DNA of 64,000 bases, from assembly GCF_000213975.1 (NCBI RefSeq), contig NZ_GL892076.1:697625-761624 (forward strand), in the 5' to 3' direction. Source of the stretch: Centipeda periodontii DSM 2778 (GTDB lineage: Bacteria; Bacillota; Negativicutes; Selenomonadales; Selenomonadaceae). The translations under genes and the position numbers were made by a program. This document shows, one piece after another, positions 5,316 through 29,705 of this stretch. A model generated the notes under the pieces. That model did no database searches. It saw nothing but the letters and a program-made list of their open reading frames with translations, and was not told the origin of the DNA. Every line of letters begins with the position of its first letter. Position 1 is the first letter of the stretch.

Positions 5316-8300
5316 TTAGAACTTCCAGTCAAATCCTGCTCTAAAGGTGACGCCGCGCTGTTTGCCTGCCCAGCCCTCGATGCTGAGGTCGGCGGAGGCG
5401 TTCTTGCCCATCTGTGTTTTCCAGCCGAGTTCGAGGCTGCCGGAGAAGCCCTTGAGTGTGGGCGCGGGTGTCGTGTAGGACAGCCCGCCGACGTGGACGG
5501 TGGCGCTTGTCTCGCCGCCGAATTCGTACTGCATGGAGGCGCCGAGGATGAGGGAGCCGCTGCCCTGCGGGATCATCCAGCGTGCGCCCGTGCGCAGGCG
5601 ATGGCTGTTGACGGCGTCGAACTCGTAGCGCTCACCCGTGGAGAGGGTTGCATCCGTGCCGTTCTGCCGCGTGTAGAAGTAGCGGACGTACAGCTCGCGC
5701 TCGTTGCCGCTCTGCTCCGTGACGCGCTGACCAAAGCCCAGATGTGCGCCGATGTAGTTCGTATCGGTGTCATAGGAGGTGGGACCGCCCGGCAGCTGCG
5801 CAGAGTAGTCCATCGAGGAGCGCCCGAAGCGCAGGCTGCCCTCGTAGAACGTGCCGTCCTTCTGCTCCTGCCGGATGAAGCCGCCGACGCCGACGTAGCG
5901 GACGGAGCCGTCGCCGTGCGCATCATTGACGTAGCTGTCGTAGGTGCCGCGTCCGTATTCGACGATGGGGCCGAAGAGGATGCGCTCATCGCCGCGCAGG
6001 ACTTCACGCGAGAAGCCAACGGCGAGGTTCATGCCCTTCATATCGACGTGGGAACCCGTCTCATGCCGCATGGAGGAGCCGCCGATGGCCGCAAATGGGG
6101 CAAAGCCCTCGGCTGCCGCCGCCTCGACGGATGCACTCGTCATGCCGCCGCCCGTCATGAGGTCTGCACCTGCGCCGAGGAAGGCTGCCGCTCCTGCCAT
6201 CGTCTCGACGACGGACTTGCGGTTGTCCTCTGCCTGCCGCTTGAGGTCATCGGGCGTCGGTGTCGGCGTTGGTGTAGGTGTAGGTGTAGGTGTAGGTGTA
6301 GGTGTAGGTGTAGGTGTAGGTGTAGGTGTAGGCGTTGGTGTAGGTGTTGGTGTAGGTGTCGGCGTTGGTGTTGGTGTCGGTGTTGGCGTTGGTGGTGGGG
6401 TTGGAGGTGTCGGTGGTGTTGGCGGCGGCGTTGGCGGTGTTGGGGGTTTCGGCGTTGGCTTATCGCCCTCGTCGATGGCGGAGCCGTCGGTCTTGACAAT
6501 CAGCTCCTTATTATCCTCGGTGATGCCGATCTTCGCCGTAGTGACATCCGAGACGCCCTTCCAGACGGTCATGGTGGTCGTGCCGTCCTTCTGGATCTGC
6601 GCTTTCTCTGTGTAGAGGAGGCGCAGGCGCTTCTCCGTCTCATCGCCGCGCAGATGCGCCGTGATGTCCGTGCCCGTGAGGTTGGTATTGCTCGTGGACG
6701 AGAGCCAGAGCATGGTGTCGTCCTTCGTCATGCCGGCGGGCAGCCAGAACTCGAGCTTTTGGAATCCATCGATGGAATCTGCCTTGATGCCCTTGGTCTC
6801 CTTGACGACGAGCGCGTTGCCTGCGATGTTCTTCGTCGCGCCCACTGCCTTGTGTCCATAGAGCTGCGCCGCAGAGAGGTTGGGCGTGCCCGTGATGACG
6901 ATGCGGTTATCCTTGACGGTTGCGACGGAGCCTGCATCACTGCCCGCGTTCGCTTCGCCGGCATAGATGCTCTCCTGATAGATGCCGCCGCTGATGTTCA
7001 CAGTGTTCGCGTTTGCCGTCGCCTGTGCCGGCGCGCCGTCTGCGGTGGCGTAGCCGCCGATGATCTCCGACGTAAATGTACCGTGTGCGAGGTTCAGCGT
7101 GTTCTCGTTTGCCGTCGCCGTCGCAGCCGCCCCATCCGCGTTGGCATTGGCCCTGCCGCCGCGGACCTGTCTCCACGGAGCAGCGGCGGAGAGGGTGACG
7201 GTATTCTTTGATGCCGACGCAGTAACGGGGGCATCCTTGCCGACCGCCCCTACTGTGCCGCCGTACACATCGCTTGCCGCCGTCAGCGTGCCGCCCTCGG
7301 CGGTGATGCTGTTGCTGTCTGCCGCAGCCGCTGCGCCCGCGCGCTCTGCCGTGCCATCGGCGACGCCGCCGATGAGCGCCTGCACTGTGCCGGAGGCGTT
7401 CTTCAGCAGCAGCACATTTTCATGTGCCGCAGCGGATGCGGTCTTCCCTGCCGCTTTCGTAATGACCACGGCATACCCCGTGTGGATGCGGGTGTCATCG
7501 AGCTTGGCATTGGTGAGCTTGACCGTGTTCTTCGTGAGGGCGGCGGTCGCTGCGCTCTTCGTTGAGATGAGTTCTGCCCAGCCGCCGTACAGCTTGTTCG
7601 CGAATGTACCGCCTGTGCCCGTGACGGCGTTCTCCGTGAGCGTTGCCGACGCATCGCCCGCATTGTTCACTCTCAGGGCGGCAAGTGCGCCGTAGGCATC
7701 CTTCACCGTGCCGTCCGTGCTCGTGACCGTGTTCTTTGCTATATGCGCCGTGAACGATGCGCCGTCCTCGGAGGAGGTTTCCTGTGAGAGATAGACGCCA
7801 TAGGCGCTGCTTGTCACCACGCCCTTTGCCTCGATGGTGGCGGCGTTCTCGGTCGCCGTGTATGTCGTCGCGCCGCCAAAGGCGTTCGTCGCCGTCATGT
7901 TCACGCCGCTCATGCTCTCCGCCGTGCCCTCCACGAGCCGCGCCGTGTTCCCTGTCGCCGTGAGCGCGGTATCGCCCGCCGCCGTGGCGCCAGGATCCCG
8001 CCGATAGTTGATGTATGCACCGTGGATGCTTTCCACGGCATTCGCCTTCGTCACGGTCGCTGCGTTTCTCTCGGCGATTACCGCCGCTGTGCCGTCTGTC
8101 TGGCGGACAGAGGTGTCTATGCCATAGACACCCTCGAGCTTCGTGCCGCTCCCCTCGGCGCTGTTCTCCCGGAATGTCGCCGTGAGATCCGCCGACGCGT
8201 TCGTATACATCTCCGCATAGCTGCCCGCAAGATTCGCGATCTCCTTGCCCGCCGCGCTCGCACGGTTCTTCTCTGCGAGGATCTCCGTCTTGCCGGCGTT

Positions 8301-25257: not shown

Positions 25258-26280
25258 ATGAATCTCGGAAGCTACCGCACGTCCATCATCCTCGCCGTGA
25301 CATTCACGATACTGCTCTCGACGTTTTGGTTCTATCAGGATTTTGCATTTATCGTCTTCCTCTCGCTGCTCCTGCAGCTCCTCCTAAAGCCTGTCGTGGA
25401 TTTTATGGAGGTGCGGCGGATGCCGCGCGCGGTCGCGTCGGCAATCGCCATCATTGCGTTCATCCTCGTGCTCGCCGCACTCGCGAGCATCATCTCACGT
25501 TCCGTCCTCCCGTCCTTTCAGCGGTTCGTGGCGGAACTGCCGACCATCGGTCAGAGTCTGCAGCAGCTTCCCGTTCTTTCGGACACGGATTTTGTTCAAA
25601 ACGAATTCGTGAACATCCTCGACCGTCTGCGCAGCGTCGGCGCGGACCTGCTGCGTGCCTCACTCTCCTTCATCCTCGTCGCATTCGGGAAGGTCATCGA
25701 CTTTGTCATCATCATTTTCGTATCGTTCTATCTGCTGAAGGACGGCGCGGATATCAAACTCTGGCTGACGGGACTCTTTCCGCATAATTCCCGTGCGCGC
25801 GTCCTCCGCCTCTTCGATACGCTCCTCATCGCACTGCGCGTCTACATCTGCAGTCAGCTCGTTATGTGCTTTATCACAGGGCTGGTCGTATTCGCCTACT
25901 TCAAACTGATGGGGCTGCCGTATGCCTCCGTCTTTGCCCTGCTCTCCGGCATCAGCGAGTTCATCCCCGTGCTTGGACCCACCGTAGCCTCGGCGCTCGG
26001 CATCATCATGACCGCCTCGGCGGCGCGGGAGCTGACCGTGCAGACCGCGCTCTTTTACGTTGCGCTCACGCAGGTGAATCACAACGTCGTCTATCCCGCC
26101 CTCGTCGGCAAGAGCCTCCACCTCCACCCCGTCGCAGTTATTCTCGGCGTCGTCTTCGGCGGAGAAGTCCTCGGCGCGGCGGGGATGTTCCTCGCCGTCC
26201 CCTTCATCGTCATCATCAAGATCGTCATCACGGACATCTATCGCGACCGGCAGGAGATGAAGGACGGGGAAACCATGTAA
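25258..26280 (+). CDS. AI-2E/PerM-family transporter
   Basis: 340 residues with seven to eight membrane helices and a large soluble loop (about residues 85-145). The C-terminal half carries the family signature FSGISEFIPVLGPTVAS-like block (LLSGISEFIPVLGPTVAS) and NHNVVYPALVGKSLHLHP. Known members export autoinducer-2 or act as Na+/H+ antiporters; most are uncharacterised. AAAGGAGGCGCC precedes ATG. It lies 30 bases after the ParE gene but looks unrelated to it. Confidence 0.92.
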   Translation: MNLGSYRTSIILAVTFTILLSTFWFYQDFAFIVFLSLLLQLLLKPVVDFMEVRRMPRAVASAIAIIAFILVLAALASIISRSVLPSFQRFVAELPTIGQSLQQLPVLSDTDFVQNEFVNILDRLRSVGADLLRASLSFILVAFGKVIDFVIIIFVSFYLLKDGADIKLWLTGLFPHNSRARVLRLFDTLLIALRVYICSQLVMCFITGLVVFAYFKLMGLPYASVFALLSGISEFIPVLGPTVASALGIIMTASAARELTVQTALFYVALTQVNHNVVYPALVGKSLHLHPVAVILGVVFGGEVLGAAGMFLAVPFIVIIKIVITDIYRDRQEMKDGETM

Positions 26281-26283
26281 AAG

Positions 26284-26322
26284 AAAAATCGCCTCGGCAC
26301 AGTGCGTGCTGGGGCGATTTTT
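26284..26322 (+). terminator. Terminator of the PerM-type gene
   Basis: AAAAATCGCC pairs with GGCGATTTTT around a 19-base loop containing a smaller hairpin (GGCAC/GTGC). Confidence 0.88.
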
Positions 26323-26329
26323 AGGTGTC

Positions 26330-26496
26330 TAGGGAATCACTGATAAATTCAGCACCGCCATCTTAGCACATCTTTTTTGCCCGCTTTTCGTTAGCAAATC
26401 CTCCACATAGCTTTGGCTATGCGTCCGGTTTGCTGCCTCAATCGGACGAAAAATCTGCGCCAATCTGACGGACTTCATTTTATCAGTGATTCCCTA
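26330..26496 (+). mobile_element. Miniature inverted-repeat element, full copy 2 (reference copy)
   Basis: 167 bases bounded by TAGGGAATCACTGATAAA and its exact reverse complement TTTATCAGTGATTCCCTA. The interior has a palindrome CACATAGC...GCTATGCG. There is no ORF. The TA at each edge may be a duplicated target, as for Tc1/mariner/IS630-type elements; no transposase for it is in the window. Confidence 0.9.
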
Positions 26497-26541
26497 GGGA
26501 AAAAAGGATCGACACATACGGAAATTTTCCTAAAAAAGCGC

Positions 26542-26570
26542 TTGCCATACGCGGGGGGGGGGGGTATAAT
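26542..26570 (+). promoter_or_regulatory. Promoter with poly-G spacer (phase-variable candidate)
   Basis: TTGCCA (26542-26547) and a perfect TATAAT (26565-26570) are 17 bp apart. Twelve consecutive G (26553-26564) fill the end of the spacer. Slippage at such a tract changes the spacing away from 17 and would switch promoter strength. It drives the five-gene operon that starts 45 bases later. Confidence 0.85.
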
Positions 26571-26614
26571 ATTTTTTAAGGATTTTTAAGGAAATGGTAA
26601 GATGGAGGAGTTTT

Positions 26615-27595
26615 ATGGGACTGGGAAAACGTGTCGAACCGCGCGCGGAGATGTCATCGACAGACGTCAAAAGCAATACAGCGGAGAAAGCATCGGATAC
26701 CTTTGTACCGGAGGAGCCAAAGTATACCTTTGACGATATGATCCTGCCGGAGCATGTGCGCGAACAGATCCTCAATGCTGCGGACTACGCCGAGAACAGT
26801 AAGGTTGTGTTCGAGGACTGGGGGCTTGAGCGCACGCACAAGTATTCCAAGCGCATCGGCATCAATCTCTATGGCGAGCCGGGAACGGGGAAAACAATGG
26901 CGGCACACGCCATCGCAAAGCATCTCGGGCGCAAGATCATCATTGTCAACTATGCGGACGTCGAGTCGAAATATGTCGGTGAAACACCGAAGAACATTCG
27001 CAAGGTGTTCGAGGCGGGCAAGGAGACGGGGAGCATCATCTTCTTTGATGAGGCGGATGCCATCCTCAGTCGCCGCGTCACGAATATGAACAATGCGACG
27101 GATGTCAGTGTCAATCAGACGCGCTCCGTTATGCTCATGGCAATGAACGAGTATCAGGACTTTATCATCTTTGCGACGAATTTTATCTCGAACTTTGATC
27201 CTGCCTTTATGCGGCGCATCTCCATGCACGTGAAGTTTGAGCTGCCCGACGAGGAATGCCGTCGTCAAATATGGGCGAAGTACATCCCCGCCGAACTGCC
27301 GCAGACCCTTGATATTTCGGAAATTGCGGCGAAGTATGACGGGCTGACGGGGAGCGATATATCGAACGCAATCCTCAACGCAGCATTTCGTGCCGCACGA
27401 AAACGGGAGACGAGCGTCCCGTCGGAGTATTTCTATGCGGCGGTCGAGGACATCCTGCACAGCAAGGAGGCGAACCGGGAGCGCGAGCCAAAGACCACGG
27501 TGCGTCCTGTTTCAGAGGCGTACGTCAAAGAACAGCTCGCAAAGGGGAAAGTCGAGAATCCGTCCAAGATGATGGGGGAAGGAGCCTTTTTATGA
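26615..27595 (+). CDS. AAA ATPase of the poly-G operon
   Basis: 326 residues. Classic AAA domain: Walker A GEPGTGKT (87-94), pore-loop-like KYVGET (119-124), Walker B IIFFDEAD (141-148), sensor 1 in FATN (186-189) and an RR finger (200-201), then the helical lid with DGLTGSDISNAI. The N-terminal 35 residues are acidic and disordered-looking. There is no membrane helix and no protease domain, so it resembles Vps4/spastin-type remodelling ATPases more than FtsH. The C-terminus (296-311, VRPVSEAYVKEQLAKG) nearly repeats the end of the next protein. TGGAGGAG precedes ATG 26615. Its stop overlaps the next start (ATGA). Substrate unknown. Confidence 0.93.
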   Translation: MGLGKRVEPRAEMSSTDVKSNTAEKASDTFVPEEPKYTFDDMILPEHVREQILNAADYAENSKVVFEDWGLERTHKYSKRIGINLYGEPGTGKTMAAHAIAKHLGRKIIIVNYADVESKYVGETPKNIRKVFEAGKETGSIIFFDEADAILSRRVTNMNNATDVSVNQTRSVMLMAMNEYQDFIIFATNFISNFDPAFMRRISMHVKFELPDEECRRQIWAKYIPAELPQTLDISEIAAKYDGLTGSDISNAILNAAFRAARKRETSVPSEYFYAAVEDILHSKEANREREPKTTVRPVSEAYVKEQLAKGKVENPSKMMGEGAFL

Positions 27596-27828
27596 TACCG
27601 GCAATCGCCGCAGGAGTGGCAATGTTGACAGGCGGAACCACAGTGGGAGCGGCAGCAGGAGCTGCAGCCGCAGGAGCAGCCGCCGTAGCGGGCGGGATTG
27701 CCGTCAAAAAGGCAATGAGCGGAGGGAATGAGAAGGACAAAAAGGATGATTCGGAAACGCAGGTGCGTTATGTTTCGGAGGACTATGTCAAAAAACAGCT
27801 TGCAAAAGGAACGATGAGCAAATTGTAA
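27592..27828 (+). CDS. 78-residue Gly/Ala-rich membrane-associated protein
   Basis: Family not recognised. Residues 1-40 are small and hydrophobic, full of Gly and Ala (AAAGAAAAGAAAVAGGIAV), and could insert in or curve a membrane. Residues 41-57 are charged (NEKDKKDD). Residues 58-73 (VRYVSEDYVKKQLAKG) copy the C-terminal peptide of the AAA ATPase with few changes. Translation is coupled to the ATPase through the ATGA overlap. I infer a partner or substrate adaptor of the ATPase. Confidence 0.75.
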   Translation: MIPAIAAGVAMLTGGTTVGAAAGAAAAGAAAVAGGIAVKKAMSGGNEKDKKDDSETQVRYVSEDYVKKQLAKGTMSKL

Positions 27829-27879
27829 CGCGCTCATTTGATTGCGTTTTTTTGATGAATACATGAAGGAGAGAAGTGT

Positions 27880-28257
27880 ATGATTCCGGCATTGATTGCA
27901 GCAGGGCTTCTGCTTGGTGGCGTTGCGTTGGTCGCAAATTGGGATGATATCGTCGATTGGGTACGCGACTTTGTACCCCGCTTTAAGAAGGCATGGGCGC
28001 GTATCAGTCCTCATCTTCCGTATGAGATGCAGTTTTTGGGTGATTTGATTGTCAAAGCCGGCGAGCATCTTATCAGCATCATGAATAAAGTTTACTATCA
28101 GGAAGAAAGTGGGCAGTGGGTGGAAGAAACCACAAGAAGAAATATTTCTGAAAATCAAGTTCCCCCTCATATCCGTGAAAAAATCCTGAGACAAAAGCAA
28201 CAGACGGGAGAAGCAGCCGAGATCAGTCAGGAGCTGGAACTCGAAATGGCTGGTTAA
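27880..28257 (+). CDS. 125-residue protein with N-terminal membrane segment
   Basis: Family not recognised. Like the 78-residue protein it opens with MIPA, and residues 1-20 (MIPALIAAGLLLGGVALVAN) form a hydrophobic segment. An amphipathic part follows (WDDIVDWVRDFVPRFKKAW). Residues 72-101 carry YY-x5-GxW, TTR and REK in the same order as the next protein, suggesting a shared domain. The ISENQV piece also resembles the VSEDYV motif of the two upstream proteins. AAGGAGAGAAG precedes ATG. Base composition is more A/T-rich than in the ATPase gene. Confidence 0.75.
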   Translation: MIPALIAAGLLLGGVALVANWDDIVDWVRDFVPRFKKAWARISPHLPYEMQFLGDLIVKAGEHLISIMNKVYYQEESGQWVEETTRRNISENQVPPHIREKILRQKQQTGEAAEISQELELEMAG

Positions 28258-28278
28258 CTGAGAGACGGAGGAATCAAG

Positions 28279-28926
28279 ATGGTATCTCGTGAACTTGATG
28301 GGGTGGATCGTGCTCTTCTGAAGGTGAAGGAAACAATCGATGGACTCTGTAAGCTCTTTGGAAGCATTACCAATTTTCACCGAGAAATGGATATTGATGA
28401 AGCTGCCAAATTCTATACGGAGAGACTTGATTCGTATATGGCTTCTGCTAAGCAGAGAGCACAGGATTCACTGATCGCAGGACAGCTTACCTTTCAATAT
28501 GTTGATGAAAACGTGTTTTTAATTAAACTTGAACTTTACTATCCTACTAGTGATGGTAAATGGATGCAGGAGTCCTCACAAACAACGCGGCAGTTGAAAT
28601 ACCTCAAACCCGCCGCAGCACAGGAACTGCGCGAAAAGAAGGAAATCTCGTTTGAGATCGACCCGCCCGAGGAGACGCCAGAAGGGACTGTAGCTGGAAA
28701 ACCTGTGACACAGAACTCGTCTGCCGAGGTCGGTGAAGTGTCTGCCCCTACAAAAACTGCGCCACCTGCGGCACAGAGTACACCTGCCATGACAGCGGAA
28801 GTGTCTGCCCCCTCCGCAGACCCCGCCGCACCCGCTACGCTTGCGTCCGCGCAGGAGTCCGCCATAGCGCCTCCTGTAGGTGAGGATGCACAACCCGCTC
28901 CTGCTTCTACCGACGAAGCAAAATAA
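28279..28926 (+). CDS. 215-residue protein with Pro/Ala-rich tail
   Basis: Family not recognised. Residues 1-65 are helical and charged. Residues 66-125 are beta-rich and share the YY-x5-GxW (87-95), TTR (102-104) and REK (118-120) block with the preceding protein. Residues about 130-215 are a low-complexity tail of Pro, Ala, Ser and Thr, likely disordered. There is no signal peptide. ACGGAGGAATC precedes ATG. Its TAA overlaps the start of the next gene by one base, so the YkgJ-like gene belongs to the same operon. Confidence 0.75.
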   Translation: MVSRELDGVDRALLKVKETIDGLCKLFGSITNFHREMDIDEAAKFYTERLDSYMASAKQRAQDSLIAGQLTFQYVDENVFLIKLELYYPTSDGKWMQESSQTTRQLKYLKPAAAQELREKKEISFEIDPPEETPEGTVAGKPVTQNSSAEVGEVSAPTKTAPPAAQSTPAMTAEVSAPSADPAAPATLASAQESAIAPPVGEDAQPAPASTDEAK

Positions 28927-29177
28927 TGTTCCCGTGTCAGCAATGCGGTGCGTGTTGCCGTGCAGTCGGACAGTCGCCCCTTGGCAAAGACCTTGCGGAT
29001 GCAGACGGCGTGTGCAAATATCTGAACCGTACGACGAATCTCTGCACCATCTACGCCGAGCGTCCAGCGATCTGCCGCGTCGATGACTACTATGACGCGC
29101 ACTGTCGCGGCGTGATGTCGCGCGTAGCATACTATGAAGAGAATCTACGCTGTTGTGAAAGACTGCGCGGGAAATGA
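28926..29177 (+). CDS. YkgJ-family Cys-cluster protein
   Basis: 83 residues. The pattern MFPCQQCGACCRAVGQ, then C in DGVCKYL, LCTIYAERPAICR and a late CC pair matches the CxxCGxCC ... C ... C...RPxxCR signature of the YkgJ/UPF0153 zinc- or iron-cluster proteins. The substrate is unknown for the family. ATG overlaps the previous stop (TAATG). It is the last gene before a bidirectional terminator. Confidence 0.9.
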   Translation: MFPCQQCGACCRAVGQSPLGKDLADADGVCKYLNRTTNLCTIYAERPAICRVDDYYDAHCRGVMSRVAYYEENLRCCERLRGK

Positions 29178-29199
29178 AACAAGAGAAAATGTCATACAA

Positions 29200-29229
29200 A
29201 AAACGCCGTACCAATCGGTACGGCGTTTT
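29200..29229. terminator. Bidirectional terminator (poly-G operon and dps)
   Basis: AAAACGCCGTACC pairs with GGTACGGCGTTTT around a 4-base loop; A and T runs flank both sides, so it can stop both converging genes. Confidence 0.93.
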
Positions 29230-29264
29230 CGTGTATATGGGAAGCAAGGAAGAATGGACTGTAA

Positions 29265-29705
29265 TTACGCAAGCATGGAGCGGAGGAACCAGATCTGCTT
29301 TGCGTAGTTGGTGATGTGATCCTCCATGAGGTTGGCGATGCCGAAGACATCGTCCTTATCAGCGAGGGCACGGATCGATGCCGCCTGGTCGCGGAGGAGT
29401 TCGAGGTCAGCGAGCGTCAGCTGGAGTGCCTTCTTCTGATCAACCTTCTCATCGGCGAGCTCCTTGATCGTCGCGATCGCGAGGTAGCCCTTGAGGCTCG
29501 CGACCGGCTGCTCACCGCAGATCTTGAGGATCTCGGCGCTCTCATCAAGCACGTCCGCGAATGCGTCGTAGAGTGACTCAAGATACTCGTGTACCGCCTT
29601 GAACTGCGAGCCGACGACGTTCCAGTGGAGATTGTGCAGCTTGATGTAGCCGACGCCGATGTTGGCGATGTATCCGTTGAGTGCGTTTGTGATTTCCTTG
29701 TTCAT
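29265..29705 (-). CDS. dps: Dps-family ferritin (DNA protection during starvation)
   Basis: 146 residues. Ferritin-like four-helix protein that oxidises and stores iron and protects DNA from peroxide. Ferroxidase ligands keep the Dps spacing: H27 (in HNLHWNV), H39, D54 and E58. ATG 29705 is chosen because AAAGGGGAA precedes it and the family begins there; the longer frame to 29804 crosses the promoter. It has a consensus promoter with a PerR/Fur-like palindrome next to the -35. It converges on the poly-G operon. Confidence 0.95.
   Translation of the reverse strand: MNKEITNALNGYIANIGVGYIKLHNLHWNVVGSQFKAVHEYLESLYDAFADVLDESAEILKICGEQPVASLKGYLAIATIKELADEKVDQKKALQLTLADLELLRDQAASIRALADKDDVFGIANLMEDHITNYAKQIWFLRSMLA

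Follow-up and report, generated by a model that had tools for sequence, protein, structure and literature searches.

A twelve-G tract in the promoter spacer of a mobile AAA+ operon of Centipeda periodontii: a probable phase-variable promoter and its counterparts in Selenomonadaceae

The operon, its promoter and its insertion site

In the window, that is, the whole stretch of 64,000 nucleotides from Centipeda periodontii DSM 2778 analysed here, five close genes (g1 to g5, 26615-29177) face a promoter whose spacer ends in a run of twelve G (Table 1). The sequence-only reading had described TTGCCA and a perfect TATAAT placed 17 bp apart, with 12 G closing the spacer, and direct reading of the letters agrees with it exactly: the layout at 26542-26570 is TTGCCA-TACGC-G12-TATAAT, and the spacer (26548-26564, 17 nt) consists of TACGC and G12. 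Hexamer pairs scoring at least 11/12 at a spacing of 16-18 are found at five sites in the window; the hexamers are ordinary by themselves, and the unusual part is the G tract inside one pair. No homopolymer in the 64-kb window other than G12 reaches 8 bases, and in the whole genome (2.76 Mb, 8 contigs) only two further G/C tracts reach 9, both being of exactly 9 bp. The string G12-TATAAT, with up to two mismatches allowed, is matched once in the window and never in 100 dinucleotide shuffles. The textbook optimum for the spacing of -35 and -10 boxes is 17 bp, and by such rules the present allele should be a strong one.

Table 1. Features of the operon and of its upstream flank (positions in the window)
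Position	Strand	Feature	Basis
26284..26322	.	terminator-like hairpin, 17-nt arms, flanking A/T runs	inverted repeat, sequence
26329..26498	+	copy of a ~165-bp interspersed repeat, MITE-like	~49 scored copies in genome
26542..26547	+	-35 box TTGCCA	sequence
26553..26564	+	G12 tract, final 12 bases of the 17-bp spacer, proposed slippage site	sequence; G8-G15 or T13 here in orthologous promoters
26565..26570	+	-10 box TATAAT	sequence
26604..26609	+	Shine-Dalgarno GGAGGA of the ATPase gene	sequence
26615..27595	+	g1, AAA+ ATPase, 326 aa, Cdc48/PAN-like AAA domain with lid	Pfam AAA 4.9e-30, AAA_lid_3
27592..27828	+	g2, 78 aa, glycine/alanine-rich small protein	sequence
27880..28257	+	g3, 125 aa, small, hydrophobic N-terminal helix	module core, 57 loci
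28279..28926	+	g4, 215 aa, helical N-terminus, small beta sheet with conserved GG, P/A-rich tail	module core, 52 loci
28926..29177	+	g5, 83 aa, CxxCxxCC protein, putative Zn/Fe-binding	Pfam CxxCxxCC 1.2e-06
29203..29226	.	hairpin followed by TTTT, likely operon terminator	sequence

The ATPase encoded by g1 matches Cdc48/p97 chains in PDB and ends in the motif VRPVSEAYVKEQLAKG, which is repeated in g2 as VRYVSEDYVKKQLAKG. The element common to both, V(R)xVSExYVKxQLAKG, is encoded at 27547-27595 in the ATPase gene and at 27760-27828 in g2, and may possibly be a docking tag. No Pfam family scores above its cut-off for g2, and there is no Pfam match for g3 or g4. AlphaFold2 models have a mean pLDDT of 71 for g3 and a pLDDT of about 90 for the core of g4, and neither fold has a PDB match better than E 0.001; the top matches, beta-barrel fluorescent proteins and helix bundles, were treated as noise. 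A Pepco domain in g4 is no more than a lead, since the window protein itself has no match and the 20 bits scored by one relative fall short of the cut-off of 27.

What kind of element is this operon? An ATPase gene followed by homologues of g3 and g4 is defined here as the AAA+/g3/g4 module, and the operon is of this kind. Among 113 non-redundant ATPase loci, the g3 cluster is present in 57, often in more than one copy per locus, and the g4 cluster in 52, while homologues of g5 accompany the module in 18. The module is found in both Bacillota and Pseudomonadota (Selenomonadaceae, Lachnospiraceae, Oscillospiraceae, Sporomusa, Moraxella, Ignatzschineria), including plasmids of Moraxella osloensis and Comamonas, and the ATPase occurs in only three of the 14 genomes of the window's genus. 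The ATPase also matches phrog_3757 (9e-65), and a record of a Moraxella catarrhalis phage carries the ATPase at its end. A phage origin of the operon was rejected, and the operon is called mobile rather than viral, because only two phage records hold a homologue of the ATPase.

The site points in the same direction. The operon is inserted at a site (26280-29265) between a gene for an AI-2E-family transporter and dps; the insert is absent from three relatives, in which these two genes are about 100-220 bp apart, and at the same site one relative has genes for a helix-turn-helix protein, a vWA-like protein and a PP2C-like protein, and others have a transporter. Thus, the site is variable and the operon a mobile or accessory insert in it, an accessory AAA+ module consisting of the ATPase and small membrane-linked proteins. 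The upstream hairpin insulates it from the transporter gene. Between this hairpin and the promoter lies a copy of an interspersed repeat, which looks like a non-coding MITE or a similar element and matches all 14 genomes of the genus, with tens of copies in most; some 45 bp separate the copy from the -35 box, and it is outside the switch itself. Elsewhere in the window, ten perfect copies of GGTGTA (6271-6330) lie within a longer degenerate repeat of Thr/Pro type, probably a linker of a surface protein encoded on the minus strand. This repeat would vary in length and not between on and off, because hexamers preserve the frame.

Repeats in front of orthologous operons and across the family

The 350 bp upstream of each of about 100 ATPase orthologues were read, and in eleven, including the window, the directly upstream promoter has a homopolymer in its spacer (Table 2). 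In the ten promoters from elsewhere this homopolymer is G8-G15 in nine and T13 in one; with the window included, the spacers are of 15-22 bp.

Table 2. Homopolymer tracts and spacer lengths in promoters of the operon
Locus	Tract	Spacer (bp)
window	G12	17
L042	G9	15
L111	G9	19
L112 and L148 (two copies in one genome)	G15	22
L117	G11	18
L120	G9	16
L122	G10	20
L129	G8	16
L145	G9	19
L107	T13	19

All eleven tract-bearing copies carry g3/g4 genes. Among non-redundant copies from Selenomonadaceae, a spacer homopolymer is present in 10 of 34 module-bearing ATPase loci versus none of 45 module-less ones (Fisher p 9e-5), L042 being the eleventh on top of these ten. The remaining 24 of the 34 module copies have no tract, and many of them lack a promoter of their own at that place because another gene is located directly upstream. 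G/C tracts of at least 8 number 12 in the 27 kb upstream of the ATPase, a count that includes four of a divergent gene and leaves out T13, versus 3 in the remaining 344 kb of the same loci (Poisson p 5e-17), which corresponds to a density about 50 times that elsewhere in these loci. Poly-G upstream of L159, L162, L169 and L170 is part of a divergent gene and was not taken as an ATPase promoter tract. If presence of the tract is mapped on the ATPase tree, eight changes are needed, at least four of them forced by well-supported branches; thus, the tract arose or was lost repeatedly, and each change may be a gain or a loss. Tetranucleotide and pentanucleotide repeats near L056 and L041 are upstream or elsewhere and were left uncounted. 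The former includes 24 copies of CAAG at the start of a contig (L056, 1-96), upstream of a termite-gut homologue, and might be another contingency repeat.

In Moraxella, a repeat is found in the coding part of the orthologous gene. The ATPase gene of Moraxella lacunata (L047, 4901-5007) has 11 copies of AGCAGTC right after the ATG, an array that occurs once in that genome. With 10 or 13 copies the sole ATG is in frame, and 320 aa are open; with 11 or 12 it is out of frame. A 97%-identical relative in the same genus also has 11 copies, out of frame with the only ATG (L047; L248); with both genomes at 11, no length polymorphism of AGCAGTC was seen between the two. A third Moraxella contig starts within a CAACCAG repeat at the same place, and other Moraxellaceae copies of the ATPase have no repeat. 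The heptamer is likely to be a convergent route to repeat control of the orthologous ATPase.

Is the design confined to this operon? Of 189 Selenomonadaceae genomes, 40 contain the pattern G8-N0-6-TATAAT, and most of these belong to one rumen-associated genus. Extended by a -35 box (TTGACA-N0-16-G8-N0-6-TANNNT), the pattern gives 106 distinct sites in 51 of the 189, while the reversed pattern, used as a control, gives no site in the same genomes. Spacers of the 106 sites range over 11-29 bp, or 12-27 bp where the -10 box is good; among the 89 sites of the latter kind, a spacer of 19 is the commonest (36/89), and 16-18 accounts for 25/89. The prevalence of 19 means either that assemblies mostly show the low state or that the optimum is shifted for spacers with a G tract. 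Tracts are of 8-16 G, mostly 9. One genome has four promoters of the form TTGACAAAGCTTC-G8/G9/G9/G10-TGATATACT, in which the context is near-constant and the number of G is unequal, and in another TTGACACT is followed by G9 to G15. One poly-C promoter, that of an RTX-like gene, shows C11 in one genome and C8 in two others, and the flanking bases displayed are alike. Genes located behind poly-G promoters include those for glycosyltransferases, RTX-like repeat proteins, a lipoprotein-like DUF5105 protein, a clostripain-family protein, a radical SAM protein and a ZorA homologue, and this set is the usual catalogue of contingency genes. Among the 14 genomes of the window's own genus, only the window genome has a poly-G/TATAAT promoter, and therefore the habit is imported or isolated there.

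Slippage at the tract and its alternatives

How would such a tract act on the operon? Since the length of the G-run at this place differs among relatives, random switching of the operon up and down by slippage is very probable, and G12 would be where slippage occurs in a transcriptional contingency switch for g1-g5. Slippage during replication would add G to the tract or remove it and would shift the spacing between the -35 and -10 boxes by one base per step. Cells of one clone would then transcribe g1-g5 at unequal strength, strongly with the 17-bp allele, and weakly or not at all once the spacing departs from it by two bases or more. That G12 slips reversibly, that this affects transcription and which state the clone is in are inferences. 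The sequence-only reading had proposed a phase switch with the present clone ON. The proposal of a switch is strengthened by G8-G15 or T13 in the corresponding position of orthologous promoters, by similar promoters with unequal tract length, and by the enrichment over background together with the empty reverse control; the ON state is a prediction from the textbook optimum of 17 bp, against which stands the commonest spacer of 19 in the family.

It is to be noted that G12 was counted in one assembly of one strain, and that a homopolymer of 12 bases can be miscounted. The tract might then be an artefact of sequencing or assembly, truly shorter or interrupted, as homopolymers of this length are prone to error and contigs of relatives even break at such tracts (L216). 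Against this stand runs of G8-G16 in the same promoter context across 51 independently assembled genomes, and miscounting by one or two bases would leave the tract in place, so that we regard an artefact as extremely improbable. Another possibility is that the G tract is a structural or protein-binding element, such as a site for a G-rich regulator or a G-quadruplex, and not a device to set spacer length. Such an element would suit the nearly constant preference for G over C on the coding strand and a tract that mostly abuts the -10 box, but it hardly fits the T13 at the same place in an orthologous promoter (L107), the divergent RTX-type genes with C8/C11 spacers, or tract lengths ranging over 8-16, and we consider it very unlikely.

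A third alternative is that G12 is a neutral or decaying homopolymer, prone to slippage and unselected, while promoter strength is fixed at 17 bp. Uniqueness of this promoter type to the window genome within its genus is in favour of this idea, as is the one tract length (G12) seen at the window locus. However, a neutral tract would not be expected to recur in front of one operon at a constant position with 50-fold local enrichment and nothing in the reverse control, nor to stand out in a genome that otherwise has two G/C tracts of 9 only; on balance, it seems an unlikely account. Slippage that switches the operon is thus the reading preferred here.

Known systems, possible use and meaning

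Most known cases of phase variation through the promoter spacer are from Neisseria and a few further Pseudomonadota. In porA of Neisseria meningitidis, poly-G lies between the -10 and -35 boxes and variants of 11G, 10G and 9G alter expression (PMC3639595). The window promoter is similar in having poly-G inside the spacer and different in its phylum and its target, an outer-membrane protein gene there versus an AAA+ accessory operon here, known from its sequence alone. In fetA (frpB) of Neisseria gonorrhoeae, the spacer holds poly-C, with C10-C14 between strains, and expression shifts with the spacing (PMC5320596); again a homopolymer lies between -10 and -35, but it is C and not G on the coding strand, and the control is a graded one of a siderophore receptor. 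As in promoters of the porA/fetA type, a homopolymer of at least about 8 bases lies between the two boxes in the window (G12 in a 17-bp spacer). Differences in length are seen between species at the orthologous promoter and among similar promoters within a genome, the window species being represented by one strain. The kind of switch is already known; what appears new is its probable occurrence in Selenomonadaceae, on an operon that could not be matched to any described system. In the literature searched, which left most subscription journals uncovered, no report was found of phase variation in Selenomonadaceae or of the AAA+ module.

Then, what might such an operon be for? PADLOC models of IetA match the g1 ATPase (3.4e-37), but its score on the NCBIfam model IteA is 122.6 bits against a cut-off of 510, and no operon protein matches a model of the serine protease IetS. 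Membership in IetAS was rejected on these two grounds. Zorya offers another comparison: in one relative (L216), a ZorA homologue (7e-41; complement of 3-1460) directly follows G9-TATAAT at the contig end, like the ATPase operon of the window behind its poly-G promoter, although the -35 region is beyond the contig end and the gene content is different. Therefore, this promoter design appears to serve a known defence gene in the family as well, and the Zorya system concerned is a candidate for phase variation. A defence-island context was considered and rejected as weak: five of 107 neighbour proteins match PADLOC models of Ser/Thr kinases (PD-T4-6, MkoA, Stk2), and they are plain kinases in Pfam too. 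A role in conflict, such as phage defence, would be the most likely use, and we would give it an even chance. It is suggested by the patchy, plasmid- and phage-borne distribution, by the IetA-like scores under the cut-off, by the use of the same promoter design in Zorya, and by the proposed switching of the operon itself.

Taken with the data on orthologous promoters and on tracts across the family, the finding is more than a single curious tract. A wider picture can be drawn tentatively, somewhat short of an even chance: Selenomonadaceae, chiefly the rumen-associated genus, may use poly-G spacers, most commonly of 19 bp, as a lineage-wide contingency system, and a mobile, undescribed AAA+ conflict module may have come independently under repeat control there (poly-G, poly-T) and in Moraxella (a coding heptamer), as switching a costly defence pays. 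If this is true, promoter-spacer phase variation extends to the diderm Firmicutes of mouth and rumen and to more than 100 promoters, with the switch placed in front of RTX-like proteins, glycosyltransferases, a Zorya component and a mobile AAA+ operon. The repeated appearance of simple repeats in control of the same operon strongly hints at an expression that is sometimes useful and sometimes costly, for which tract length in sequencing reads would be an easy read-out, and such alternation of benefit and cost is as expected of systems for defence or conflict.
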